A DNA stretch of 64,000 bases. Origin: Acidovorax sp. CCYZU-2555 (GTDB lineage Bacteria; Pseudomonadota; Gammaproteobacteria; Burkholderiales; Burkholderiaceae_C). Below are positions 9,146-22,639 of the stretch, in pieces (position 1 is the first letter of the stretch; the number at the start of each line of letters is the position of its first letter). The translations under genes and the position numbers were made by a program. Below the pieces are notes generated by a model that had not been told where the DNA came from, ran no database searches, and saw only the letters and a list, made by a program, of their open reading frames with translations. Location: contig NZ_JAHCDD010000008.1 of assembly GCF_018413525.1 (NCBI RefSeq), positions 1-64,000 of the forward strand. The letters run 5' to 3'.

Positions 9146-9300
9146 GGTGAATTCCTCTCATTTGTGGACCGCTGCCGAAGTGGCAGCGGATAGAGGGAAG
9201 ATACGCAGATGGCCGCACGCCGACAAAGGTTCATTAGTCAGCTGTAGGATGAATTGATCTCATCCATAGGCGGGTGTCGCGAGGCACCTTCCAAACGTTC

Positions 9301-10185
9301 ATGCACCGACGATCCCTGCCGCTGTCCGCCCTGCGCGCTTTCGAGGCCGCGGCCCGGCTGGGCAGCTTCAAGGCGGCGGCCGAAGAGCTCGCGGTCACGC
9401 CCACGGCGGTCAGCCACCAGATTCGCGGGCTCGAGCAGCAGATCGGCGCGCCGCTGTTCACCCGGCAGGTGCGGCGCGTCGCGCTGACCGAAGCGGGTGC
9501 GTCGCTGTATCCCGTGCTGCGAGACGGCTTTGACGCTTTCCAGGCGGCGTTGGAGCAGCTCACGAAAGCGCGCCAGCGGCCCCAGGTGGTGATCTCTGCG
9601 ACCAATGCCTTCACCGCCAAATGGCTGTTGCCGCGCATGGGCGCGTTCCGCCAGGACTTCGCGGGCATAGACCTGCAATTGCAGGCCTCGGACGAAACCG
9701 TCAACCTGCGCTCCACCACCGTCGACATCGCCATCCGCTACGGCCGCGGCCCCTATCCCGGACTGATCGTCGAGCCGCTGTTCACCGACCGCTTCGCGCC
9801 CGTCGCCAATCCACGCCTGGGCGTGCGCACGGTCGAAGACCTCGCACGCTGGCCGCTGATCTATTTCGAGTGGCGCCGGCCCCACGCGCACAACCCGACC
9901 TGGAAACGCTGGTTTGCCCAAGCCCGGCTGATGGAGGCCGCGCCTGCGGGCGTCTTGCGCTTCTCGGACGAAGGCCATGCGATCCAGGCGGCGGTCGCTG
10001 GCGAGGGCATCGCCCTGGTGAGCCAGGCCCTGGTCGCCGAAGAACTGGCCTCCGGTCGGCTCCATCAGCCCTTCGGCCCCAGCATCGAAGGCCACACCTA
10101 CCACCTGGCCGTGAGCGCCGAGCGCGCGATGACGCCCAGCGCGCAGGCCGTCATGGACTGGCTCAAGGCACAGGCTGCAGCGTGA
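9301..10185 (+). CDS. LysR-family transcriptional regulator (GcvA type)
   Basis: 294 residues from the ATG at 9301; a GTG at 9274 would add nine residues but the ATG gives the canonical GcvA-type start LPLSALRAFEAAARLGSFKAAAEEL. Helix-turn-helix in residues 5-60 (TPTAVSHQIRGLEQQIGAPLFTR), then the substrate-binding domain with SATNAFTAKWLLPRMGAFR and DIAIRYGRGPYPGL. Divergent from the RidA/OYE operon over a 155-base gap, so it likely controls that operon and itself. Effector unknown. Confidence 0.92.
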   Translation: MHRRSLPLSALRAFEAAARLGSFKAAAEELAVTPTAVSHQIRGLEQQIGAPLFTRQVRRVALTEAGASLYPVLRDGFDAFQAALEQLTKARQRPQVVISATNAFTAKWLLPRMGAFRQDFAGIDLQLQASDETVNLRSTTVDIAIRYGRGPYPGLIVEPLFTDRFAPVANPRLGVRTVEDLARWPLIYFEWRRPHAHNPTWKRWFAQARLMEAAPAGVLRFSDEGHAIQAAVAGEGIALVSQALVAEELASGRLHQPFGPSIEGHTYHLAVSAERAMTPSAQAVMDWLKAQAAA

Positions 10186-10189
10186 GACC

Positions 10190-10357
10190 GTGAACGAAGC
10201 CCTGGCCAAACCGGAGATCCGCGCCAAGCTGGAGCTCGAAGGCCGCAACGTCGCCCAGCCGATCACCGACCAGGCGCAGGCCGACCGCATGTTCGAGCAA
10301 CAGCTCGATCGCATGGTGCGGCTGGTCAAGACCGTGGGACGACCGGCCAACGCATAA
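10190..10357 (+). pseudogene. C-terminal remnant of a Bug/TctC-type periplasmic receptor (probable)
   Basis: A 55-codon open frame starting at a GTG five bases after the LysR stop. It reads VNEALAKPEIRAKLELEGRN... and ends ...MVRLVKTVGRPANA, which resembles the last two helices of Bug receptors (compare NEALAMADVRERHKGLG and VNKSVNEALA at the end of the complete Bug gene at 51915). The remaining 270 residues are missing, so this is best read as the tail left after a deletion that joined it to the LysR gene. A small genuine gene is less likely. Confidence 0.5.
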
Positions 10358-10497
10358 AAGACTGCGCAGCGGTTGCAGCCCGTCGCCAGCAGGATGGCGC
10401 AGGGCATGGCGGGAGGCGAGCGCGCGTGCTGGCCCGCAATCTGGCGTTGAAACTCACGCGCATAGATCTGGGGGGCCCGGCCGTGCCTCCTCTCGAC

Positions 10498-11343
10498 TCA
10501 CCGCAGCAGCGCATCCAGCAGCCGGCCATGGGCGGAGCCCGCGGGCCACAGCAAGCCGATTTCACGGTACAGGGGATCGGGAACCGGAAGCGCTATCAGG
10601 TGCTCCCCAAGAGGCTTGGCGCGGGCCCAATCGGGCACCAGTGACACCCCCATTCCCAGCCCTACCAATACTTCCAGGGCATCAAGTGCATCCAGTTCCA
10701 CGCGCTCCGTGGGCTGGATGCGTCGGGACTGCAGGTATTGATCCGAAAGAGCGCCGCCCCAGTTCTTCCGGTCATAGCGAATGTGTGGTTGCGATGCCAG
10801 CAGTGCAAGCGGGTCGGCCCAGGCATGACTCTTGTGCGCCAGGACGACCAAGGGCTCGCGGCGCACCGTTCTCCAGCTCAGGGACTTGGGCAGCTCGAAA
10901 GGCGGCACAACGATCAGCGCCATGTCGAGTTGATCGCGCTGCACCTGGTGGTACAGATCGCGCGACACACCGGCCACCAGTTGCACATCGATGCGTGGAT
11001 ACAGACGGACGACTTCTCCGAGGTGCTCGGGCAACCAGCCGCTCAGGGCCGTGCTGATCGAGCCGAAGCGCAGGCTGCTGGGCAGTGCCTCACCCAGCAC
11101 ATTCGAACGCAATTCCCTCAGCACCTTCTGCAGGCTGCCGGCGCCGGCCGCGAGACGCGCGCCACTTTCTGTCGGCCGCACGGTGCGGCCTGAGCGCACC
11201 AGCAACTGACAGCCGAACTCGGCTTCCAGCGTCTGAACCCGCAAGGCCAAGGCCGTCGCCGTGAGGTTGAGCCGCCGAGCCGCTTCGGCGATGGAGCCGC
11301 ACTCCACCACGGCGACAAAGCTGTCAATGAAGTTTGTATTCAA
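10498..11343 (-). CDS. LysR-family transcriptional regulator
   Basis: 281 residues, slightly short for the family. N-terminal helix-turn-helix (MNTNFIDSFVAVVECGSIAEAARRLNLTATALALRVQTLEAEFG), then a ligand-binding domain (DMALIVVPPFELPKSLSWR, GLGMGVSLVPDWA). Divergent from the Bug / alpha-hydroxyacid oxidase / DHDPS-family operon over a 146-base AT-rich region, so it is the likely regulator of that operon. The effector would be the acid brought in by the receptor (inference). Confidence 0.9.
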   Translation of the reverse strand: MNTNFIDSFVAVVECGSIAEAARRLNLTATALALRVQTLEAEFGCQLLVRSGRTVRPTESGARLAAGAGSLQKVLRELRSNVLGEALPSSLRFGSISTALSGWLPEHLGEVVRLYPRIDVQLVAGVSRDLYHQVQRDQLDMALIVVPPFELPKSLSWRTVRREPLVVLAHKSHAWADPLALLASQPHIRYDRKNWGGALSDQYLQSRRIQPTERVELDALDALEVLVGLGMGVSLVPDWARAKPLGEHLIALPVPDPLYREIGLLWPAGSAHGRLLDALLR

Positions 11344-11489
11344 TTGGGAATCCAGTTTTTCTTCATTTTAAACAATGGAGAAGCATGTTTTTCTTTTTTT
11401 CTTGGAACTTGAGAATGACTTCCAGGCAGGCGATCGCTCGCCAGCGCCGCCTGCTGCAAGCAGTACCAAAAAATAAAGGAGACAAACAA
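11344..11489. promoter_or_regulatory. Divergent promoter region, LysR / Bug operon
   Basis: Conspicuously AT-rich for this genome, with a pyrimidine tract (TTTTTCTTTTTTTCTTGG) about 100 bases before the Bug start and the Shine-Dalgarno AAAGGAGA at 11476-11483. Probably carries the LysR-binding site; no symmetric box was strong enough to define. Confidence 0.4.
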
Positions 11490-12494
11490 ATGCGCATTTC
11501 ATATCAGGGAACAACCCGCCGTCAGGGGCTGTGCGCCATCGCCTTGGCGGTGGCAACGCTGGCCGGCGCGAACATGGCACTGGCCGCGCCCGACAGCTGG
11601 CCCAACCGTCCGATCAAGATGCTGATCGGGTTTTCCGCCGGCGGAGCGGTCGACAACGTAGGCCGTCAACTCGCACAGGGTTTGGGCGCGCGGCTGGGTC
11701 AATCGGTGGTCGTTGAAAACAAGCCGGGAGCCACGGGAACCCTTGCGGGCGACGCGGCCGCGAAGTCACTGCCCGATGGCTATACCGTGCTGCTGGGCAC
11801 GCAATCCACGATGCTGGTGGCGCCCGCGGTCTACCCCAAGATGCCCTTTCGCCCTATGGAGGATCTGGCGCCCATCTCGCTGGTCGCTTCCGTGCCATTG
11901 GTGCTGGTCGTTCACCCGTCCGTGCCGGTACAGAACGTCAAGGAACTGATCGCGCTGGCGCGTGCCCAGAAAGGCGAACTGGCTTATGCGTCTTCAGGAC
12001 AGGGCGGCCCCCAGCATGTGGCCAGCGAACTGCTGAACCAGATGGCCGGGGTGAAGATGGTGCACATCCCCTACAAGGGCGAGTCCAATGCGCTCGCGGA
12101 CGTGCTGGGTGCGCAGGTCACCGTCATGTTCGGCAACTTGCCCACGCTGCTGCCCTCCATCCGCTCGGGCAAATTGCGCGCGATCGCCGTCAGCAGCCTT
12201 CAACGCAGTGACGTCGCGCCTGATATCCCGACCGTCGCCGAGTCGGGCCTGCCTGGCTTCGAAGCGCTGACCTGGTTCGGCTTGTTCGCCCCGGTCGCCA
12301 CGCCCAAACCCGTCATTGAGCGCCTGCACCGCGAAATCGTCACCAGCCTCGCAGACAAGGAATTCCAGTCCAAGTTGCGCGGCCAAGGACTGACGCTGGT
12401 GGGCAATGATCCCGCGCAGTTTCGCAGCTATATGCAGACGGAAACCGTGAAGTGGGCCAAGTTGGTGGAATCCGCAAAGATCAAGCCTGACTGA
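11490..12494 (+). CDS. Bug/TctC-family tripartite tricarboxylate transporter substrate-binding protein
   Basis: 334 residues from the ATG at 11490, which has a good Shine-Dalgarno (AAAGGAGAC); the upstream open frame is promoter. Signal peptide cleaved near LAGANMALA-AP. Mature protein has the Bug fold markers WPNRPIKMLIGFSAGGAVDN, VVVENKPGATGTLAGD, LAYASSGQGGPQHVASELL and VHIPYKGE. Bug proteins bind carboxylates or related small molecules in the periplasm; no TctA/TctB membrane partners are nearby. First gene of an operon with two catabolic enzymes, which likely act on its ligand. Confidence 0.92.
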   Translation: MRISYQGTTRRQGLCAIALAVATLAGANMALAAPDSWPNRPIKMLIGFSAGGAVDNVGRQLAQGLGARLGQSVVVENKPGATGTLAGDAAAKSLPDGYTVLLGTQSTMLVAPAVYPKMPFRPMEDLAPISLVASVPLVLVVHPSVPVQNVKELIALARAQKGELAYASSGQGGPQHVASELLNQMAGVKMVHIPYKGESNALADVLGAQVTVMFGNLPTLLPSIRSGKLRAIAVSSLQRSDVAPDIPTVAESGLPGFEALTWFGLFAPVATPKPVIERLHREIVTSLADKEFQSKLRGQGLTLVGNDPAQFRSYMQTETVKWAKLVESAKIKPD

Positions 12495-12501
12495 AGCCAT
12501 C

Positions 12502-13719
12502 ATGCTGCACCCAGAAAAGAAACGACTTCGCATACCCCGTCGCATGCTGACGACCGTGCGCTCGCTGGAAGACTATGAGTCTGTCGCGCAGCGCATGCTG
12601 CCGGCTGCCGTGTTCGGCTACATCTGCGCGGCAGCCGACGGGCAGGCCGCGGCGCGGCACAACCGGGACGCATTTGACGATTTCGAATTCCGTCCGCGGT
12701 TTCTGCGCGATGTCTCCGCGCGCACGACGGCGGTGGACATTCTGGGTCAGCGCTACGCCAGCCCGTTCGGGATAGCGCCCATGGGCTTGAGTGCATTGTC
12801 GGCCTACCGTGGCGATCTTCTCCTGGCACAGGCGGCGGCGGCCCGGAATCTGCCGATGATCATGAGCGGCTCGTCGCTGATTCCCATGGAAGCGATCGCT
12901 CAAGCCAACCCGAACGCCTGGTTCCAGGCGTATGTGACGGGCAATGCGGATCGCAATCGCGCCTTGATCGACCGCGTGGCGAAAGCGGGTTTCAAGACGC
13001 TGGTGATCACGGTCGACGTTCAGGCCCAGCCTCACCTCGAGTTGGCCGTGAAAAGCGGCTTTTCCGCGCCCCTGAAGCCCAATCTTCGGCTGGCATGGGA
13101 CGGCATCACGCACCCGCGCTGGTTGCTGGGCACTTGCCTGCGCACATTGGCGTTGCATGGAATGCCGCACTTCGAGAACAACGATGCCCAGCGCGGCGCC
13201 CCCATCCTGTCGCGCTCGGTCACCCGTGACTTTTCGGACCGCGGCTCGTTCACCGCCCACCATCTGGCGGCGATACGGCGGCAGTGGCATGGTCACTTGA
13301 TCGTCAAAGGCATTGCCACCCGGGAGGATGCTCGCCTGGTAGCAGACGAGGGTGTGGACGGGATCATCGTGTCCAACCATGGCGGGCGCCAGCTTCACGG
13401 CGCGCGCCCGACGATCCACGCCTTGTCAGAGGTAGTGCAAGCCTGCCCGCAGTTGCCCGTGATGCTCGATAGCGGCGTGCGGCGCGGCACGGACGTACTC
13501 AAGGCGCTGGCCCTGGGCGCGAGGATGGTGTTTGTCGGACGCCCTTTCGCCTACGCCGCAGCCGCGGCCGGGGAGGCGGGCGTGCACCACGGGCTGCAAC
13601 TGCTGTCCAACGAGATCTCGCAGTGCATGGCCATGCTCGGCCTCACCGAACTGCAGGGCGTTCCTGGCGATTGCGTCGCCCATAAATACGGCCGCCAAAA
13701 ATCATCTCGCCATCCGTGA
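12502..13719 (+). CDS. FMN-dependent alpha-hydroxyacid oxidase/dehydrogenase
   Basis: 405 residues, a TIM-barrel member of the glycolate oxidase / lactate dehydrogenase family. Landmarks: SPFGIAPMGLSAL, the active-site Tyr in FQAYVTGN (144), TLVITVDV (Asp172), LIVKGI (Lys269), VSNHGGRQL with catalytic His293 and Arg296, and the FMN-phosphate site LDSGVRRGTDVLKALALGA. After TVDV the family usually has an R-E-x-D motif supplying a substrate-binding arginine; here that stretch reads QAQPHLELAVKSGF, so the arginine appears missing, hinting at an unusual substrate. It oxidises a 2-hydroxy acid to a 2-oxo acid, a fitting step before the DHDPS-type aldolase downstream. Confidence 0.9.
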   Translation: MLHPEKKRLRIPRRMLTTVRSLEDYESVAQRMLPAAVFGYICAAADGQAAARHNRDAFDDFEFRPRFLRDVSARTTAVDILGQRYASPFGIAPMGLSALSAYRGDLLLAQAAAARNLPMIMSGSSLIPMEAIAQANPNAWFQAYVTGNADRNRALIDRVAKAGFKTLVITVDVQAQPHLELAVKSGFSAPLKPNLRLAWDGITHPRWLLGTCLRTLALHGMPHFENNDAQRGAPILSRSVTRDFSDRGSFTAHHLAAIRRQWHGHLIVKGIATREDARLVADEGVDGIIVSNHGGRQLHGARPTIHALSEVVQACPQLPVMLDSGVRRGTDVLKALALGARMVFVGRPFAYAAAAAGEAGVHHGLQLLSNEISQCMAMLGLTELQGVPGDCVAHKYGRQKSSRHP

Positions 13720-13763
13720 TGGCGGCATTTCAACTCTCTTCTTCAAAAACGATCAGGCCCTCC

Positions 13764-14699
13764 ATGTCCCATTCCCATCGCTTCCAAGGCGTTTATTCGC
13801 CCGTGCTCACACCGTTCAATACCGATCTGACGCCGGATCCAGAGCGCTTTGTGCGCCACTGCCGCTGGTTGCTCGACCAGGAAGTGGGCTTGTCCATTTT
13901 CGGGACGAACTCCGAGGCGACATCGCTCACGCTGAAAGAGAAGCGCACGCTGCTCGACACGCTGATCAGCGCTGAGTTGCCGGCGCACCGCATCATGCCG
14001 GGCACGGGCGCCTGCGCCCTGCCCGACGTCATCGAGTTGACGCGCCATGCGGTCGGAGCCGGTTGTGGTGGCGTGCTGATGCTGCCGCCGTTCTACTACA
14101 AAGGCGTCAGCGACGAGGGACTGTTCCGCGCCTTCGCCAGCGTCATCGAAGGCGTTGCCGACGATCGTCTGCGCGTGTTCCTGTACCACATTCCACCCGT
14201 CACGCAGGTGCCGATTTCGCTGGCGTTGATTGACCGTCTGATGACCGCGTTTCCCGGGATCATCACCGGAGTCAAAGACAGTTCGGGCGACTGGGACAAC
14301 ACCCGCTCCATGATCGAGCAGTTTCAGCCCCGCGGCCTGGATGTTTTCGCGGGCAGCGAAACCTTTCTCCTCGCCACGCTGCGCGCGGGCGGTGCAGGCT
14401 GCATCACGGCCACAGGCAACGTCAACCCGGCGCCCATCGTGCAGTTGTTCAAGACCTGGCAAAACGCCGATGCCGACGCCCAGCAGGCGAAACTCAACGC
14501 GACCCGCGCGGCATTTGCCCAGTTTCCCATCATCGCAGCCATGAAGGCCTCCATCGCGATGAAGACCGACCGCGCCGACTGGGCCACGACGCGGCCGCCC
14601 CTGGTGGAGCTGAGTGCATCGCAGCGCGAAGCGCTGGGCGCCGCGTTGGATGCTGTCAATTTCGAGTTGGTCAACGCCTCTTCGCTGGGCCTGCGCTGA
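13764..14699 (+). CDS. Dihydrodipicolinate synthase/N-acetylneuraminate lyase-family aldolase
   Basis: 311 residues from the ATG at 13764. DapA-like TIM barrel with GTNSEATSLTLKEK, Tyr141 in VFLYHIPP and the Schiff-base lysine Lys171 in ITGVKDSSGDWDN. The family cleaves or forms C-C bonds next to a 2-oxo acid, often releasing or using pyruvate. Sitting behind a 2-hydroxyacid oxidase and a Bug receptor, it is more likely a catabolic lyase than the lysine-biosynthetic enzyme. Last gene of the operon; exact substrate unknown. Confidence 0.9.
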   Translation: MSHSHRFQGVYSPVLTPFNTDLTPDPERFVRHCRWLLDQEVGLSIFGTNSEATSLTLKEKRTLLDTLISAELPAHRIMPGTGACALPDVIELTRHAVGAGCGGVLMLPPFYYKGVSDEGLFRAFASVIEGVADDRLRVFLYHIPPVTQVPISLALIDRLMTAFPGIITGVKDSSGDWDNTRSMIEQFQPRGLDVFAGSETFLLATLRAGGAGCITATGNVNPAPIVQLFKTWQNADADAQQAKLNATRAAFAQFPIIAAMKASIAMKTDRADWATTRPPLVELSASQREALGAALDAVNFELVNASSLGLR

Positions 14700-14998
14700 C
14701 GCCATCCGCAGCCGGCCTGCACGTGGAGCGCGCCGGCATTCCGGTGCTGGCATCGCACGCAAGCGTGGTCGACAAGCACTTCTGAATGACTCATGTCGAT
14801 CCACCATGGCCTCGCCGGGGCAGCATTCTGACACCGGCGACTTCTCCAAGGCACGAAATATGTCAGCCCTGACCAATCGCCAAGCGTCAATCAGGGAAAA
14901 TGTGACACACGGACGTCGCGATCAGCGGATTGCGGCGGCGTCCGTTCAAGGCTACGGCTTGCCCTCCGAGCACACATGCTGAAGATGTTCGTTCGCTT
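14700..14998. other. Intergenic region before the NRPS-like gene
   Basis: About 300 bases. The first 86 carry a short open stretch ending SVVDKHF and a stop, possibly a gene tail, without a recognised family. The rest must hold the promoter of the large synthetase gene; no clear -35/-10 pair, operator or terminator was found. Confidence 0.35.
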
Positions 14999-17900
14999 AT
15001 GACAATAACAAGAGGGCCGTTTCGCCAGGATTTTCTGCGCAAAGAAGTGTTGGCCGACCTTTTCGAGGCCACGGCGGCGCGCCAGCCCGCGCATGCGGCG
15101 CTGATCTGCGGTGACCTGCAACTGAGCTATCGTGATCTGGACGAACGCGCCAGTCTGATGGCCCACCACCTGATGGCCAAGGGCGTGAAACCCGGCGATA
15201 TCGTGGGTCTGTGGTTGCCGCGGGGCATGGACTTGCTGGTCAGCCAGTTGGCCATCGCCAAGACCGGGGCGGCCTGGCTGCCGCTGGATGCAGACGCGCC
15301 TGCAGAGCGGGTCGCAGTTTGCCTGGAAGATGCGCAGGCGGTAGGCATCGTCACCGGCCATCCGTCGCTCGCAGCCATATGCGCGGTATGGGACCCGGCG
15401 ACGCTGCTCGCGCAGACATCGGAGCCCTTGCTGCGCCGCCATGGCGCCAGGCCTGAGCATCCGTCCTACGTTATTTACACCTCGGGTTCCACCGGCAAGC
15501 CCAAGGGCGTGCCGATCAGCCAGGGGGCCATATGCCATTTCCTGCGCAGCGAGAACGCCGTGCTGGGCGTGCATGCCGACGACGTCGTGTACCAGGGCTT
15601 TTCGCTGGCCTTCGACATGTCGTTCGAGGAAATCTGGATCTCCTATCTGGTGGGCGCCACCTTGTGGATCGCTCCGCGTGAAATCACGGCCGACCCCGAT
15701 GCCCTGCCGCGAGCGCTGATCGATCATGGTGTCAGCGTGCTGCACGCCGTGCCGACCTTGCTGGCGCTGTTCAGCAGCGATGTACCGGGCTTGCGGCTGA
15801 TCAATCTGGGCGGCGAAATGTGTCCGCAGGCCGTGGTGGACCGCTGGGCCACGCCTTCGCGCCGGATGTTCAATACTTATGGCCCCACCGAGGCCACCGT
15901 GTCCGCCAGCATTGCCGAGCTCCACGCCGGCCAGGCCGTGACGATAGGCGCGCCGCTGCCTAACTATGGCCTGCTGGTGGTCGATGCCGACCTGAAGCTG
16001 GCCGACGCCGGCGAAACCGGCGAACTGTGCATCATCGGTCCCGGCGTGGCCCTGGGATACCTGGGACGACCGGAGCTCACGGCCGAGAAGTTCGTCGCCA
16101 ACCCCTGGATGACACACCCGCACGAGCCACGCCTTTACCGCACCGGCGATCTGGCGCGCATCGACGCGCAGGGACAGGTCCATTGCCTGGGGCGGGTCGA
16201 CGATCAGGTCAAGGTACGGGGGTTTCGTGTCGAGCTTGGCGAGATCGAGGCCAAGCTGGCCGAGTTGCTGCACAGCGGCACGGCCGCCGTGGTGCTCAAG
16301 CCCGTCAACGAGATCGACCAGTTGGTGGCCTACGTCGTCGACGGCGGCGACACCCCGCCTACACCTGCCGATCTGCGCGCCGGCTTGCGCGCAGTCTTGC
16401 CGCCCTACATGGTGCCTGGCCACTTCGAGATCGTGTCCGGCATTCCCCGCCTGACCTCGGGCAAGATCGATCGCAAGGCCTTGCGCGCCTTGCCCATGGG
16501 CGAGATCGCCGCGCCCACGGATTCGGATGACGCCGAAACCGAGGTGGAGGCGGCGCTGTTCGCCGCGCTGGCGCGCCTGTTTCCCGGCCAGGCCTTGCGC
16601 CGAACGGCGGATTTCTTCGACGACCTCGGCGGGCATTCCCTGTTGGCGGCGCGCCTGGTTTCGGCGCTGCGCGAAGATGCGCGCTTCGTGCACATGACAG
16701 TCAACGATGTTTACCAGAACCGTCGCCTCGGCGCCATCGCCCAAGCCATGCAAGCCGGCATGGCCAAGCTCGGCGACGCGGCGCTGGCCGACTTCGCGCC
16801 GGTTCCGCGGTGGCGCAGGATGCTGTGCGGCGGCGCGCAGGCGCTGGCCTTGCCGTTCATGATCAGTCTGAATGTCATGAACTGGCTCGCGCCGTTTTTC
16901 ACCTACCACTATTTCACCGGCGAGCCCGGCGACAGCATCGCGTTTGCCGTGCTGGCTTCGGTGATGGTTTTCCTCGGCAGCCATCTTTTCAGTCTGACGG
17001 TGGCGGTGCTCAGCAGCCGGCTGCTGCTGCGCGGGCTCAAGCCGGGGCGCTACCCCTTGTGGGGTCTGCACTATTTCCGCTGGTGGCTGGCCGACCGGCT
17101 GCAGCAGCTTGCCCCGGCCTACCTGCTCTCGGGCTGCGCGCTTTACAACGGTTACCTGCGCGCCATGGGGGCGCAGGTCGGCAAGGATGTGGTCGTCGGC
17201 TCGGTCACGATCCGCCAACCCCATCTGCTGCGCATCGGTGACGGCGCCAGCATCGGCTCGAACGTCAATCTGGAGAACGTGCGCGTGGAGCGCGCTGAGT
17301 TGGTGGTGGGCGCCATCGACATCGGCGCCGAAGGCTATGTGGGCTCGTATGCGGTCATGGAGGGCGATACCGCCATCGCGCCCTGGGGCCGGCTCGAAGG
17401 TCTGGCGGCCCTGGCGCGCGGCGCACGTGTCGCTGCGAATGAAATCTGGGACGGCTCGCCGGCGAAGTTTGTGCGCCATCGCCAGTGCGGCGAGCGGCCT
17501 GCGCGCCCGCCGGTCACGCGGGCCCGGCGCATTGGCGAGTCCTTGTTCTTCGCGCTCGGCGCCGCGCTGACGGCGGTGTTGTTCTTTCTGCCCATCTTCC
17601 CGGCGTTTGCGTTGATCGATGCCCTCGAAGAACGGGTGCTGGCGCCGTCGCTGGAAGCGCACGGCTATGTGCTCGCGGTATTCCAATACGCCTTGCTTGC
17701 CCTGCCCGCCAGTGCCGTGCTGATCGTGGGAACAGCGTTGATCGCGGCCGCGATACGCTGGGCCGTGCTGCCAAGGCTGCGCCCCGGAACCTGGCCGGTG
17801 CACAGCAACCTGTACTGCCGCAAGTGGTTGGCCAACCAGATCCAAGTGGCAAGTCTGCATGTGCTGCATGGCGTCTATGCCACGGTTTTTGTGCCGTACT

Positions 17901-18955
17901 GGTATCGCCTGCTGGGCGCGAAGATCGGCCGCCATGCCGAAATCTCGACCGCCATGGGCCTGATTCCGGACATGCTGACGCTGGGCGACGAGTCCTTCAT
18001 CGCCGATGCGGTCATGCTGGGCGACGAGGAAGTCGACGGCGGCTGGATGTCGATCGACTACACGGTCATAGGCCGGCGCAGTTTTGTCGGCAACGGCGCC
18101 TATGTGCCAGACGGCACGACCTTGCCGTCGGACGTGCTGCTCGGCGTGCAGTCCAAGGCCCCGGCGAGCGAGAAGATGCAACCGGGGCAGACCTGGGTGG
18201 GCTCGCCAGCGATCAGCCTGCCGTCGCGTGAAGTGCTCACAGGCTTTCCTGAGTCCCTGACTTTCCACCCGTCGCGCTGGCGCTGGCTGGGCCGTGCGCT
18301 GGTGGAAGCGATGCGCATCGTGCTGCCGCTGTCGCTCATCATCGGCGCAGGCTATGTGATCGTCCAGCATCTCATGCCCGTGGCCGCCGAGGACGCATGG
18401 CTTGAACTGGTGTTCGACCTGGGCGTGGCTGGCATTTATTACGGCATTGGCTGCTTCCTGTTCGTGGCGGCGCTCAAGTGGCTGCTGATTGGTCGTTACC
18501 GGCCACGGGCCATGCCGATGTGGACGCCGTTCGTCTGGACCAGCGAAGCGCTGACCAGCATCTATGAGTCGATTGCCGTGCCCAACTTCCTCGAGTACCT
18601 GCGCGGCACGCCCATGATGCCGTCGATGCTGCGGCTCATGGGGGTGAAGATAGGCCGCGACGTCTACATGAATACGACCGACATCACCGAATTCGATTGC
18701 GTCGAGATCGGTGAACGCAGCGAACTCAACGCCTGGTCCGGTCCGCAGACCCACCTGTTCGAGGACCGCGTCATGAAGATCGGCCGTATCCAGATCGGCG
18801 AAAGAGTGACGCTGGGCATTCGCAGCACCGTGCTGTACGACACCGTGATCGGCGATGGCGTGCTGCTCGGGCCGCTGACCCTGGTCATGAAGGGCGAGAA
18901 GCTGCCGCCCGACAGCGCCTGGCACGGCTCACCCGCGCAGTCATGGTCGCCTTGA
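14999..18955 (+). CDS. Pls/PosA-type membrane non-ribosomal peptide synthetase (poly-amino-acid synthetase)
   Basis: 1318 residues. Adenylation domain (about 20-500): YTSGSTGKPKGVPIS near 160, NTYGPTEATV near 292, YRTGDLARID near 379, GRVDDQVKVRGFRVELGEIE near 400. Carrier domain with DDLGGHSLLAARL, phosphopantetheine site Ser547. Then three membrane-helix pairs (near 617-675, 847-925, 1100-1160) alternating with three left-handed beta-helix (hexapeptide) domains near 718-825, 970-1075 and 1211-1315. No standard condensation or thioesterase domain. This order is that of epsilon-poly-L-lysine synthetase and relatives, which polymerise one amino acid at the membrane. The selectivity segment FDMSFEEIW (205-213) gives Asp-Met-x-x-Glu, as in ornithine-type codes, so a basic monomer is likely (inference). 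Confidence 0.9.
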   Translation: MTITRGPFRQDFLRKEVLADLFEATAARQPAHAALICGDLQLSYRDLDERASLMAHHLMAKGVKPGDIVGLWLPRGMDLLVSQLAIAKTGAAWLPLDADAPAERVAVCLEDAQAVGIVTGHPSLAAICAVWDPATLLAQTSEPLLRRHGARPEHPSYVIYTSGSTGKPKGVPISQGAICHFLRSENAVLGVHADDVVYQGFSLAFDMSFEEIWISYLVGATLWIAPREITADPDALPRALIDHGVSVLHAVPTLLALFSSDVPGLRLINLGGEMCPQAVVDRWATPSRRMFNTYGPTEATVSASIAELHAGQAVTIGAPLPNYGLLVVDADLKLADAGETGELCIIGPGVALGYLGRPELTAEKFVANPWMTHPHEPRLYRTGDLARIDAQGQVHCLGRVDDQVKVRGFRVELGEIEAKLAELLHSGTAAVVLKPVNEIDQLVAYVVDGGDTPPTPADLRAGLRAVLPPYMVPGHFEIVSGIPRLTSGKIDRKALRALPMGEIAAPTDSDDAETEVEAALFAALARLFPGQALRRTADFFDDLGGHSLLAARLVSALREDARFVHMTVNDVYQNRRLGAIAQAMQAGMAKLGDAALADFAPVPRWRRMLCGGAQALALPFMISLNVMNWLAPFFTYHYFTGEPGDSIAFAVLASVMVFLGSHLFSLTVAVLSSRLLLRGLKPGRYPLWGLHYFRWWLADRLQQLAPAYLLSGCALYNGYLRAMGAQVGKDVVVGSVTIRQPHLLRIGDGASIGSNVNLENVRVERAELVVGAIDIGAEGYVGSYAVMEGDTAIAPWGRLEGLAALARGARVAANEIWDGSPAKFVRHRQCGERPARPPVTRARRIGESLFFALGAALTAVLFFLPIFPAFALIDALEERVLAPSLEAHGYVLAVFQYALLALPASAVLIVGTALIAAAIRWAVLPRLRPGTWPVHSNLYCRKWLANQIQVASLHVLHGVYATVFVPYWYRLLGAKIGRHAEISTAMGLIPDMLTLGDESFIADAVMLGDEEVDGGWMSIDYTVIGRRSFVGNGAYVPDGTTLPSDVLLGVQSKAPASEKMQPGQTWVGSPAISLPSREVLTGFPESLTFHPSRWRWLGRALVEAMRIVLPLSLIIGAGYVIVQHLMPVAAEDAWLELVFDLGVAGIYYGIGCFLFVAALKWLLIGRYRPRAMPMWTPFVWTSEALTSIYESIAVPNFLEYLRGTPMMPSMLRLMGVKIGRDVYMNTTDITEFDCVEIGERSELNAWSGPQTHLFEDRVMKIGRIQIGERVTLGIRSTVLYDTVIGDGVLLGPLTLVMKGEKLPPDSAWHGSPAQSWSP

Positions 18956-19548
18956 TGCAGTGGGCGCCAATGGCCCCGGATCAACGGCCGGCATTGCGCG
19001 CGGCCCAGCCCGCTGTGTGGGTGCTTCAAGGCCCGGGCCAGCATCTGCGCGCCGGGGCCAGGGATCTGTTGAGGGCTCTTCTGGCGGACTATTTGGGGAC
19101 GGCACCCGAAAAGACGCGCCTGCATTTCGTACCCGGCCAGGCACCGTGCGTGGACTTGCACTGGCAAGGCCTGCCTTTGTCGATCAGCATGAGCTACAGC
19201 CAGGACCTGGCACTGATTGCCATCTGCCCCGGTGCGCACATCGGCATCGATGTGACAGAGATTGCTTCCATGCCGGATTGGGCACAGGTGGCGAAGCTCT
19301 ATCTGGGCGTTGAATCGATTGCGCGCCTCGCAGCAATCGACGGCATGCCACGCGACAGGGTGTTTGCGCTGGAATGGGCCGAGCTCGAAGCGCGCTGCAA
19401 GTGCGTCGGTCTGGGCCTGCAGGAATGGTCGCCCGCCAGGCACAAGCGCTTGCACGCGGATTCCATCGAAGTGAGCACCATGGCGCTGGGTGGCTTGCGC
19501 TCAGGCCTGGCCTATGCCTTGGCGCTCGCGCGGGATTCGGCCAGGTGA
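18955..19548 (+). CDS. 4'-phosphopantetheinyl transferase, Sfp type
   Basis: 197 residues from the ATG at 18955, which overlaps the synthetase stop as TGATG; a GTG/ATG four codons upstream (18943) is also possible. Family motifs are the magnesium-binding GIDVTEI (Asp99) and WAELEARCK (Trp141, Glu145, Lys149). It transfers phosphopantetheine from coenzyme A to a carrier-domain serine. Tight coupling to the synthetase means Ser547 of that protein is the obvious target. Convergent with the response-regulator gene 34 bases on. Confidence 0.88.
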   Translation: MQWAPMAPDQRPALRAAQPAVWVLQGPGQHLRAGARDLLRALLADYLGTAPEKTRLHFVPGQAPCVDLHWQGLPLSISMSYSQDLALIAICPGAHIGIDVTEIASMPDWAQVAKLYLGVESIARLAAIDGMPRDRVFALEWAELEARCKCVGLGLQEWSPARHKRLHADSIEVSTMALGGLRSGLAYALALARDSAR

Positions 19549-19582
19549 CGCACAGTTGGCGGGTCCTGGCTTGCATAGCGCT

Positions 19583-20314
19583 TCAGAACAGCGTCTCGAC
19601 ATCGCTGGCCAGCCGATAGCCCGCGCCGCGTTCGGTGACGATCAGCACCGGCTTGGCCTGATCGGGCTCGATCTTCAGGCGCAGTCGCCGGATCTGCACG
19701 TCCACGGTGCGGTCATAGACCTCGGCCTCGTGCAGGCGCGACATCGACAGCAGCTGATCGCGGGTGAGCACCCGCTGGGGGGCGCGGCACAGCGCATTCA
19801 ACAGGCTGAATTCGCCATTGGACAATTCCACCGAGCTGCCATCCGGCGCCAGCAAGCGCCGGGTGCGCAAATTCAGCTCCCAACCCGAAAAACGGAACGC
19901 GCGGCGCGTGTTGTCGCGCTCGGGCAGCGTGGCCTGCACCTGGTAGCGGCGCAGCACGGCGCGCAGGCGCGCCAGCAGCTCGCGCGGGCTGAAGGGCTTG
20001 GTGACATAGTCGTCGGCGCCCAGCTCCAGACCCATCACGCGGTCGGCCTCCTCGTTGCGCCCGGTGAGCAGCACGATAGGCACGGTTGCGCGTTCGCGCA
20101 GCTGGCGCGCCAGGTTCATGCCGTCTTCGCCCGGCAGCTTCAAGTCGAGCAGCACCAGGTCGATGGCCTCGCGGTCGAAGACCTCGAACATTTCCTTGCC
20201 CGAACTGCCGACACTGACCCGCATATCGTTCTTGCCAAGGTATTCGACCACCAGTTCGCGGATGTCGGGGTCGTCGTCGATGACGAGAATATGCGGGTCA
20301 ATACGGGTGTTCAT
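19583..20314 (-). CDS. OmpR/PhoB-family response regulator
   Basis: 243 residues from the ATG at 20314; the frame is open further up but only across the promoter. Receiver domain with acidic pocket DDDPD, phospho-acceptor Asp57 in LVLLDLKLP, LLTGRNEEADR and Lys in DDYVTKPFSPREL. C-terminal winged helix (VELSNGEFSLLNALCRAPQRVLTRDQLL; VDVQIRRLRLKIE). Divergent from the hybrid sensor kinase gene over 237 bases, so the two probably form one signalling system. Confidence 0.93.
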   Translation of the reverse strand: MNTRIDPHILVIDDDPDIRELVVEYLGKNDMRVSVGSSGKEMFEVFDREAIDLVLLDLKLPGEDGMNLARQLRERATVPIVLLTGRNEEADRVMGLELGADDYVTKPFSPRELLARLRAVLRRYQVQATLPERDNTRRAFRFSGWELNLRTRRLLAPDGSSVELSNGEFSLLNALCRAPQRVLTRDQLLSMSRLHEAEVYDRTVDVQIRRLRLKIEPDQAKPVLIVTERGAGYRLASDVETLF

Positions 20315-20551
20315 GGATCTCGTCGCTGTAGAAAGGCACAAGTACGCAGCGTTGGTTGTACAGCCTTCAGGGCTGATGCGCATGGTAGCGCAAGGCCGCA
20401 GCGGTTCAGGCCGCCAGGCCAACGAAAGCACGCTGCATGTCATGATGCGTGCCTGCCCGGTGGGCATGCCCGGCATGGAGTGCGCTTCATCCGGGGGATG
20501 CCGCCAGATTCCCTTGATCCCTTCTTGCACGGCCTGAGCCGCCCACAGCGC

Positions 20552-22639
20552 ATGGAACCCGAAATCGAAGCCAGTTCACGCAGTCTGCGCCGCCCCTGGT
20601 GGATTGCGCTCGGCTTGTGGCTGGCACTGGCGGCGGTCACCTCCATAGGCCTGTGGCATCTGCGGCGCGACGCCGTGCAAAGCCAGTCCCGCGAGCTGGG
20701 CCTGCTGTCGCTGACGCTCACCGACGGCATAGAACGCGGACTGAGCGGCGCCGATGAGGGCCTGCACGCCTTGCGCGCCGAGTTGCTCGAAGGCCGCCGC
20801 GGGCTGGCGATGGCCGGCCCCGGCGGCGACGCGCGCCAGGCACTGCGCACGCGCGCGGCCTTGATGCCCCTGGTGGATACCTTGTGGCTGCTCGACGATT
20901 CCGGGCGGACCATTGCGGCGTCGGACCAGACGCCGGCCCCCGATTTGTCGGTATTCCACCCCTCGCCCGGCACGCTGGCCGAGGGGGCCGCCGCGCTGAG
21001 CCGGCCCTTCGACGGCCCTGGCGACAAAGGCCCGCTGATCGCGATGGCAGTCCGGTTTCCGGGCACGGCCTATGCGCCCAGCGGCTGGATTCTGGCCGGC
21101 ATGCAGGCCAGCGCACTGCTGGGGGCGTTCAGCTCGGCCATACCCTCCACGGCCACCAGCGCCTGGGTGGTGCGCGGCGATGGCGTTCGGCTGACGGGCG
21201 TGAATGCCCAGGAGCCCACGCTGGATGCCTCCACCTTGGCGCGGCATCTGGCCAGGCGCCCGGAGCTGGAGCTGCGCCGGTTTGAGGACGGCAGCGACAA
21301 GCTCGTGGCCTTGCACACCGTGTCCCGCTACGACGTCAAGGTGCTCATCTCGCGCGATCTGGAGTCGGTTCTGGCCTCGTGGCGCCAGGCGGCGACGGTG
21401 TCCGGCGCCGCGCTGGCGCTGCTGGTGCTCGTCATGGCCGCGGCCGTCCATTGGGTGCAGTTGGCCGACCGGCGCCGCGCCGAGGCGCAGCGCGCGCTGC
21501 AGGCGCAGATTTCCCGCGCCGCCAAACTGGAGTCGCTGGGCACGCTGGCCGGCAGCGTGGCGCACGACTTCAACAATCTGCTGGCCGGCATCGTCGGTTT
21601 CGGCGAAATGGCCCAGGATGCGGCACCCGCGGGCAGCGACCAGGCGCGCCACATCGACAAGATTTTGCAGATCGCCTTGCGCGGCAAGTCCCTGGTCGGG
21701 CGCATCCTGACCTTCAGTCACGCCGGGGCCAAGGCTTCGGCGGTGTTCGAGCTGGAACCCGTGGTCGAGGAAGTGCTGAGCGTGCTGTCGGCTTCGCTGC
21801 GCGGCGGCATTGTGCTGGAGCGCGTGCTGCAAGCCCCAGGCGCTTGCCTGCGCGGCGATGCGACCCAGGCCTTTGAAGCGGTGATGAACCTGTGCACGAA
21901 TGCCATGCAGGCCATGCCCCAAGGCGGAATGCTCAGCGTGCAGCTGGACCGTCTGCAGGTTGCCGAGCCGCGCGTGCTGTCGCACACCCAGCTGCCGCCC
22001 GGCAACTACCTGCGCCTGGTCGTCACCGACCAGGGCAAGGGCATCACGCCCGATGTGATGGAGCGCTTGTTCGAGCCGTTTTTCACCACCCGCGCGGCGC
22101 AATCAGGAACCGGCCTGGGCCTGGCGGTGGTGTTTGGCGTGGTCGCCGAGCTGGGCGGTGCCATCGACGTGCAAAGCAGGCCGGGGCAAGGCGCGCAGTT
22201 CACGCTGTACCTGCCGGAGTCCAGCGAGGGCGTGGACATCCCGACACCAGGCGCGCTGCAGGTCCACCCCGGCGCCGGACAGCGGCTGCTGGTGGTGGAT
22301 GACGAACCCGAACTGGTGGCGCTGACGAGTGAATTGCTCACGGGTCTGGGTTACACGCCCGAGGGCTACACAGACCCGGGCGCGGCCTTGCAGGCACTGA
22401 ACGACGATCCGCAGCGTTTCGCGGCGGTGATCACCGACGAGGTGATGCCGGGACTGACAGGCACCCAGCTGACGCAGGCCCTGCGCCAGCGCGCACCGCA
22501 TATCCCGGTACTGCTGGTCAGCGGCTATGGCGGCGCGCTGCTGGCTCAGCGTGCCGGCGCCGTCGGCGTGACCCGGCTGCTGGCCAAGCCGCTGCAGCGC
22601 AACGACCTGGCGCGCGCGCTGGCCGAAGTGCTGCGCTGA
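20552..22639 (+). CDS. Hybrid sensor histidine kinase with C-terminal receiver
   Basis: 695 residues from the ATG at 20552; an ATG at 20498 would add 18. N-terminal membrane helix (WWIALGLWLALAAVTSIGLW), periplasmic sensor of about 240 residues resembling a Cache-type fold (LMPLVDTLWLLDDSGRTIAASD), second helix (VSGAALALLVLVMAAAVHWV), no evident HAMP. Then a HisKA-type dimerisation region LGTLAGSVAHDFNNLLAGIV (His338), an ATPase domain (DQGKGI, FEPFFTTR, GTGLGLAVV) and a receiver domain with Asp629 in AVITDEVMPG. Divergent from the response regulator. The membrane-exported unknown genes downstream may be its targets (inference). Confidence 0.9.
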   Translation: MEPEIEASSRSLRRPWWIALGLWLALAAVTSIGLWHLRRDAVQSQSRELGLLSLTLTDGIERGLSGADEGLHALRAELLEGRRGLAMAGPGGDARQALRTRAALMPLVDTLWLLDDSGRTIAASDQTPAPDLSVFHPSPGTLAEGAAALSRPFDGPGDKGPLIAMAVRFPGTAYAPSGWILAGMQASALLGAFSSAIPSTATSAWVVRGDGVRLTGVNAQEPTLDASTLARHLARRPELELRRFEDGSDKLVALHTVSRYDVKVLISRDLESVLASWRQAATVSGAALALLVLVMAAAVHWVQLADRRRAEAQRALQAQISRAAKLESLGTLAGSVAHDFNNLLAGIVGFGEMAQDAAPAGSDQARHIDKILQIALRGKSLVGRILTFSHAGAKASAVFELEPVVEEVLSVLSASLRGGIVLERVLQAPGACLRGDATQAFEAVMNLCTNAMQAMPQGGMLSVQLDRLQVAEPRVLSHTQLPPGNYLRLVVTDQGKGITPDVMERLFEPFFTTRAAQSGTGLGLAVVFGVVAELGGAIDVQSRPGQGAQFTLYLPESSEGVDIPTPGALQVHPGAGQRLLVVDDEPELVALTSELLTGLGYTPEGYTDPGAALQALNDDPQRFAAVITDEVMPGLTGTQLTQALRQRAPHIPVLLVSGYGGALLAQRAGAVGVTRLLAKPLQRNDLARALAEVLR

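Follow-up and report, generated by a model that had tools for sequence, protein, structure and literature searches.

The window, a 64,000-nucleotide stretch of contig NZ_JAHCDD010000008.1 from Acidovorax sp. CCYZU-2555, very probably encodes a PosA-type synthetase that polymerises L-ornithine into short, delta-linked cationic oligomers, with the chain kept off the enzyme. We consider this the best explanation of the sequence. The domain order, the full adenylation pocket, the close relation to PosA and the overlap with the following gene can be read directly from the DNA. The synthetase adds an example to an enzyme type already known, being a close relative of the one described from Acinetobacter baumannii (Patel and Gulick 2023, PMC10522769). 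We add a wide pairing of posA with a gene for a 4′-phosphopantetheinyl transferase (PPTase), a likely transfer and a testable polymerisation site.

In the proposed mechanism, the adenylation (A) domain would activate L-ornithine as the adenylate and charge the carrier domain with it through the phosphopantetheine arm. Either the PPTase encoded by the overlapping gene or a different PPTase of the cell would attach this arm. Next, the membrane domain would join the ornithyl group to a delta-amine, either on free ornithine or on a growing chain free of the enzyme, giving short cationic isopeptide oligomers. In the excerpted text of a study on Pls, the growing chain is described as never covalently bound (PMC9205021). 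For the source organism we infer an ornithine product, whose role is perhaps antifungal or surface-related.

Synthetase gene and adenylation pocket

The synthetase gene occupies positions 14999..18955 of the plus strand and is an open frame of 1318 amino acids, with an A domain, a carrier domain and a TIGR02353 membrane domain in this order. In the ORF listing the frame starts at an upstream TTG (14930), and the ATG version starts at 14999; alignments with homologs begin at about residue 3 of the ATG version. The A domain covers residues 1-495 (14999..16483, plus strand), the carrier (PP-binding) domain residues 521-583 (16559..16747, plus strand) and the terminal membrane domain positions 16835..18937 of the same strand. 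Pfam matches were AMP-binding (22-355), AMP-binding_C (415-489), PP-binding (521-583) and a hexapeptide repeat (1264-1293); thus, there is one A domain and one carrier domain. The phosphopantetheine-bearing Ser547 lies within GGHS, which is invariant in 8/8 aligned sequences. The NCBIfam model TIGR02353, "Pls/PosA family non-ribosomal peptide synthetase", matched residues 613-1313 over model positions 2-695 of 695 with 754 bits (cut-off, 423). The first-pass annotation, made from the sequence alone, had given the coordinates, the domain order, Ser547 and a TGATG overlap with the next gene, and all of these are right. It had also described the protein as lacking condensation and thioesterase domains, and neither family is among the seven Pfam families that match the synthetase at E 0.1. 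A second copy of the synthetase in the genome was considered and rejected: the sole other TIGR02353 match scored 27.4 bits, far below the cut-off. No promoter-like site was found in positions 14650-19700, where 0.8 are expected by chance.

The pocket consists of D206, M207, E210, H249, N269, G271, T293, V301, S302 and K489. Among these, G271 was assigned by its distance from N269, and it is invariant in the 8-sequence alignment and in the alignment of named proteins. The partial ornithine-type code Asp-Met-x-x-Glu, which the first-pass annotation had taken from FDMSFEEIW, was right, and the extraction of all ten residues that it proposed yields D-M-E-H-N-G-T-V-S-K. The pocket of A. baumannii PosA is printed as D M E H N G T V S K in the excerpted text of PMC10522769, and all ten residues are identical. 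The closest solved structures to the A domain are PDB 8G95-8G98, which are given there as the A domain of this PosA (PMC10522769). The comparison with the assayed enzyme (strain AB307) drew only on its PDB chains and on a homolog found in a different strain. The A cores of the window protein and the PDB chains are identical at 242/403 positions. The A. baumannii homolog (CP040041) has the same pocket and 54% identity over the whole protein, with 295/495 identical positions in the A region and 373/704 in the membrane domain. Thus, the layout of epsilon-poly-L-lysine synthetase and PosA-type enzymes is well supported by TIGR02353, the complete PosA pocket and the 54% identity. The same evidence supports a locus for a cationic homopoly-amino acid, as had been suggested, and the polymer itself is probably delta-poly-L-ornithine.

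The function of these residues has been studied in PosA. According to the excerpted text, structures and mutants show that Asp217, Glu221, Thr304 and Ser313 hold the substrate and that Met218 bears on chain length (PMC10522769). At the second pocket position, Met is linked there to the length of ornithine, Ala to lysine and Phe to diaminopropionate (PMC10522769). The A. baumannii enzyme makes delta-poly-L-ornithine of 7-12 residues in vitro (PMC10522769, excerpted text).

The pocket was then compared among relatives. DMEHNTVS is common to all 19 sequences from a whole-genome search, namely the window protein with 17 genus relatives and one order relative, and these 18 relatives were retrieved without a pocket pattern. 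In a set of 99 sequences, 94 have DMEHNTVSK and five DMEHNSVSK. This count is biased, since 80 of the sequences were collected by scanning for the peptide FDMSFEE and hence chosen for D, M and E. The bias leaves our confidence as it was, the unbiased sets being in agreement. As a control, 20 more distant members from a phylum sample were used; three were unreadable, the longest frame not being the synthetase. The 17 pockets read were DFEALTVTK (6), DLEDISVVK (4), DLEDLTVVK (2), DMEHNTVSK (2), DMEHNTVTK (1), DVEANTGSK (1) and DSECYGVTK (1). Because of these various pockets, and of DAESITVVK in a Streptomyces pls, the PosA code is not simply family-wide. The single DSECYGVTK (L185, genome G645) matches a Bdellovibrionales code, which the excerpted text reports to favour arginine (PMC10522769).

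The occurrence of several pockets in the family speaks for a rival reading, in which the substrate is a different cationic one (lysine, diaminobutyrate, D-ornithine or a mixture) and so is the homopolymer. PosA itself binds D-Orn and L-Lys, and its efficiency of activation for D-Orn is roughly half that for L-Orn (PMC10522769, Table 1, as excerpted). However, the ten of ten pocket residues shared with PosA, including the Met at the second position that is tied to ornithine length, make another substrate improbable.

Membrane domain and candidate polymerisation site

The first-pass annotation had described three units, each with a pair of membrane helices and a beta-helix. We placed the borders of these units by hand at about residues 613-840, 841-1095 and 1096-1318. 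Five hydrophobic regions pass a 19-residue mean of 1.6, with peaks at about 646-664, 849-867, 898-916, 1104-1122 and 1141-1159. For the sixth helix, expected near 608-626, the maximum is 1.48, which is under this value. Therefore, the three helix pairs are plausible, with a weak first helix by hydropathy. The beta-helix part of the description finds no more than weak similarity in sequence to hexapeptide and gamma-carbonic-anhydrase chains. A sequence search for solved structures of the membrane domain returned none, and weak hexapeptide matches instead. Three tandem domains were reportedly the subject of a mutational study by Kito in 2013. In the excerpted text on PosA, the three units are modelled as one pseudo-threefold domain (PMC10522769). 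Our view of the three-unit fold, and of where the third-unit residues lie, is drawn from the sequence and from this published model.

The conservation of polar residues was counted per unit in 47 diverse sequences and then in 52, after the addition of five named ones; because the sequences are related, all p values are descriptive. At 93% conservation, 12 of 84 polar positions are conserved in unit 3 and 5 of 176 in units 1 and 2 (Fisher p 0.0009). The corresponding numbers of conserved polar positions are 13 and 7 at 90% (p 0.002), and 7 and 5 at 96% (p 0.06). Nonpolar positions have no excess in unit 3 (p 0.46-1.0). In six named proteins, including the Streptomyces pls product, Q1250, T1251, H1252, D1256, R1257, E1231, D1233 and E1300 are invariant; the position of E1255 is His in both Streptomyces sequences. 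Because the conserved polar residues are concentrated in unit 3, we propose one active site there. This concentration, which depends on the threshold, suggests a single site, and the motif GPQTHLFEDRVMKI (residues 1248-1261; 18740..18781, plus strand) is a candidate active-site stretch. By analogy with hexapeptide acyltransferases, His1252 is a candidate base. The conserved polar residues of unit 3 thus form a short list for testing the polymerisation site.

In another, very unlikely reading the enzyme would not polymerise: the membrane domain would hand the amino acid loaded by the A and carrier domains to a lipid, glycan or protein of the envelope, and poly-ornithine would be absent or a side product. 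Consistent with it are the weak matches to hexapeptide acyltransferase and gamma-carbonic-anhydrase chains, the lack of a further gene overlapping the synthetase-PPTase pair, and the no more than slight rise in biofilm formation that the excerpted text gives for the A. baumannii knock-out (PMC10522769). Against it, the A. baumannii relative did produce oligomers in vitro.

The neighbouring PPTase-like gene, spread and descent of the pair

The TGATG at 18953..18957 (plus strand) joins the stop of the synthetase gene to the start of the next frame, a divergent PPTase-like gene of 197 amino acids (18955..19548, plus strand). Its product scores 25.5 bits with Pfam ACPS, marginally over the gathering score of 25, and 51.9 bits with the NCBIfam HetI model (cut-off, 370). 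Thus, the first-pass call of a PPTase stands just above the Pfam score. The usual motifs of PPTases are GxDx(E/D) and WxxKExxxK. In an alignment of 56 PPTases (the window protein and 55 others), the motif Asp and Glu are present in 56/56 and the final Lys in 55/56. L107 alone has the second acid and the motif Lys (1/56 each), so that two residues usual in these motifs are missing from the neighbouring PPTases. They are either specialised enzymes, or not every part of the motif is required. L107 is a Candidatus Eremiobacterota contig (H17) with a betaproteobacterial-looking posA and the PPTase upstream (L107:2810-3514); its PPTase is the only one of the 56 with the usual WxxKE and DxE residues. 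When ten other neighbouring PPTases were scanned, eight were over the Pfam ACPS score and two (L083 and L111) under it. None of the ten passed an NCBIfam cut-off, and L111 had no NCBIfam match. A search for PDB relatives gave six matches at E 0.1, all cytosine deaminases, which we took as chance.

A six-frame search found a PPTase-like frame beside 55 of 80 named synthetase loci, with a profile that is not independent, being built from members of the same loci and the window. A gene caller that discards genes lying opposite longer antisense frames had given 42/80. In 52 of the 55, the PPTase match starts downstream of the synthetase match at a distance of up to about 250 bases; in L058 and L112 the downstream distance is greater, and in L107 the PPTase match is upstream. 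In L036 and L067, about 220-250 bases past the synthetase are covered, so that a PPTase could be missed. Among the 19 loci of the genome search (L003-L021), 17 have a PPTase-like frame, namely the window and 16/16 of L005-L020; L004 has none, and the sequence of L021 ends inside the synthetase. The genome of the source organism holds two other PPTase-family genes. Therefore, the gene overlap does not prove pairing and the partner is uncertain; it is plausible that the overlapping-gene PPTase primes this carrier. As a steady neighbour, this divergent PPTase is a natural co-expression partner for obtaining active enzyme.

At E of at most 1e-60, the TIGR02353 domain was found in 25/53 genomes of the genus, 18/399 sampled genomes of the order and 27/398 genomes of the phylum sample, the source genome included in each count; in the first count, the fragmented genus-mate G015 was scored as a miss although pieces 87-90% identical exist. 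By their titles, 57 of the 80 named loci from the genome scan belong to organisms that we take to be betaproteobacteria. Thus, the first-pass remark that such a locus is unusual for a betaproteobacterium fails, although the order count is low. A plasmid-borne copy was rejected: 49 records of a plasmid collection match the membrane domain, each with less than 60% identity. Four of the best matches there are A. baumannii records, three of which (3.6-4.1 Mb) look like chromosomes. Among the literature matches listed, we found no paper tying the Pls/PosA family to Bordetella, Comamonas or betaproteobacteria, and none on homopolymer synthetases with PPTases; we do not claim absence from print. Beyond Acinetobacter, the delta-poly-L-ornithine chemistry proven in vitro would now reach many betaproteobacteria and also named Pseudomonas loci. 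Several such hosts are probably easy to grow, so that the cellular role of the polymer can be tested.

In a FastTree tree of 99 proteins, the window copy groups with that of G015 (support 1.0) and then with those of Malikia (L033) and L110 (0.98). This group is joined with Zoogloea, Uliginosibacterium and metagenome-assembled genomes (nine members, support 1.0). L110 is a metagenome-assembled genome named Chitinophaga pinensis, and its position with the window and Malikia is perhaps a binning error. The 16 other genus-mates form a separate clade with Comamonas odontotermitis (L111; support 1.0), whose protein is 80-97% identical to theirs. This clade and the window copy meet only at the midpoint root of the tree.

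Upstream of the synthetase (9274-14699) lie genes for two LysR-type regulators, a TctC-type binding protein, an FMN-dependent dehydrogenase and a DHDPS-family protein, the last stopping at 14699, with no clear link to the synthetase. Downstream (19583-22639) are an OmpR-type response regulator (minus strand) and a hybrid histidine kinase (plus strand). When nine flanking window proteins were sought in four genus-mates and one order relative, a single TctC-type match (34%) was found, once; a neighbourhood common to the genus-mates was thus rejected. The DNA match to G015 starts at window position 14933, and therefore the upstream 1.3 kb of G015 differs too.

The simplest reading of these results is a horizontal exchange of the synthetase, probably with the PPTase along. 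An old duplication followed by loss is a possible alternative. We tentatively put forward a larger proposal, which we hold to be somewhat doubtful as a whole: posA and a dedicated, degenerate PPTase would have passed from one betaproteobacterial lineage to another as a two-gene cassette, and the membrane domain, despite its three similar units, would extend the chain at one third-unit site, around E1231, Q1250, H1252, D1256, R1257 and E1300, acting as a pseudo-trimeric relative of hexapeptide acyltransferases in which ornithyl-carrier replaces acyl-CoA.

Comparison with known systems

The member from Azospirillum ramasamyi (NZ_CP029830) is annotated as Pls/PosA family and is 45% identical to the window protein. 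Its pocket, DLEDISVVK, is near 'D L E D I G T V T/V/I K', which is among the unusual signatures in the excerpted text of PMC10522769. Its gene table is incomplete, and the eight neighbouring features listed include no PPTase.

A Streptomyces gene annotated as pls (NZ_CP109461) encodes the same architecture with 34% identity and the pocket DAESITVVK, and its third unit also has QTHLF-x-DR and LVM-x-GE. This gene is overlapped by one for an M1-family metallopeptidase (L188:5875-7287), whereas the same slot in the window holds the PPTase-like gene. The excerpted text of PMC8117764 describes an operon in which pls occurs together with a peptidase that degrades the polymer. Another coupled set was observed on the Rhodococcus erythropolis plasmid pLRE138 (L189:5377-7349), where the synthetase is followed by an overlapping BPL-N domain gene and an acetyltransferase-domain gene.

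The closest known system is PosA of A. baumannii (PDB 8G95-8G98), with which the window synthetase shares the A, carrier and membrane order and the ten-residue pocket. In A. baumannii, posA is described in the excerpted text as a single-gene operon with no cotranscribed neighbour (PMC10522769). In contrast, the synthetase gene of the window is overlapped by a PPTase-like gene.
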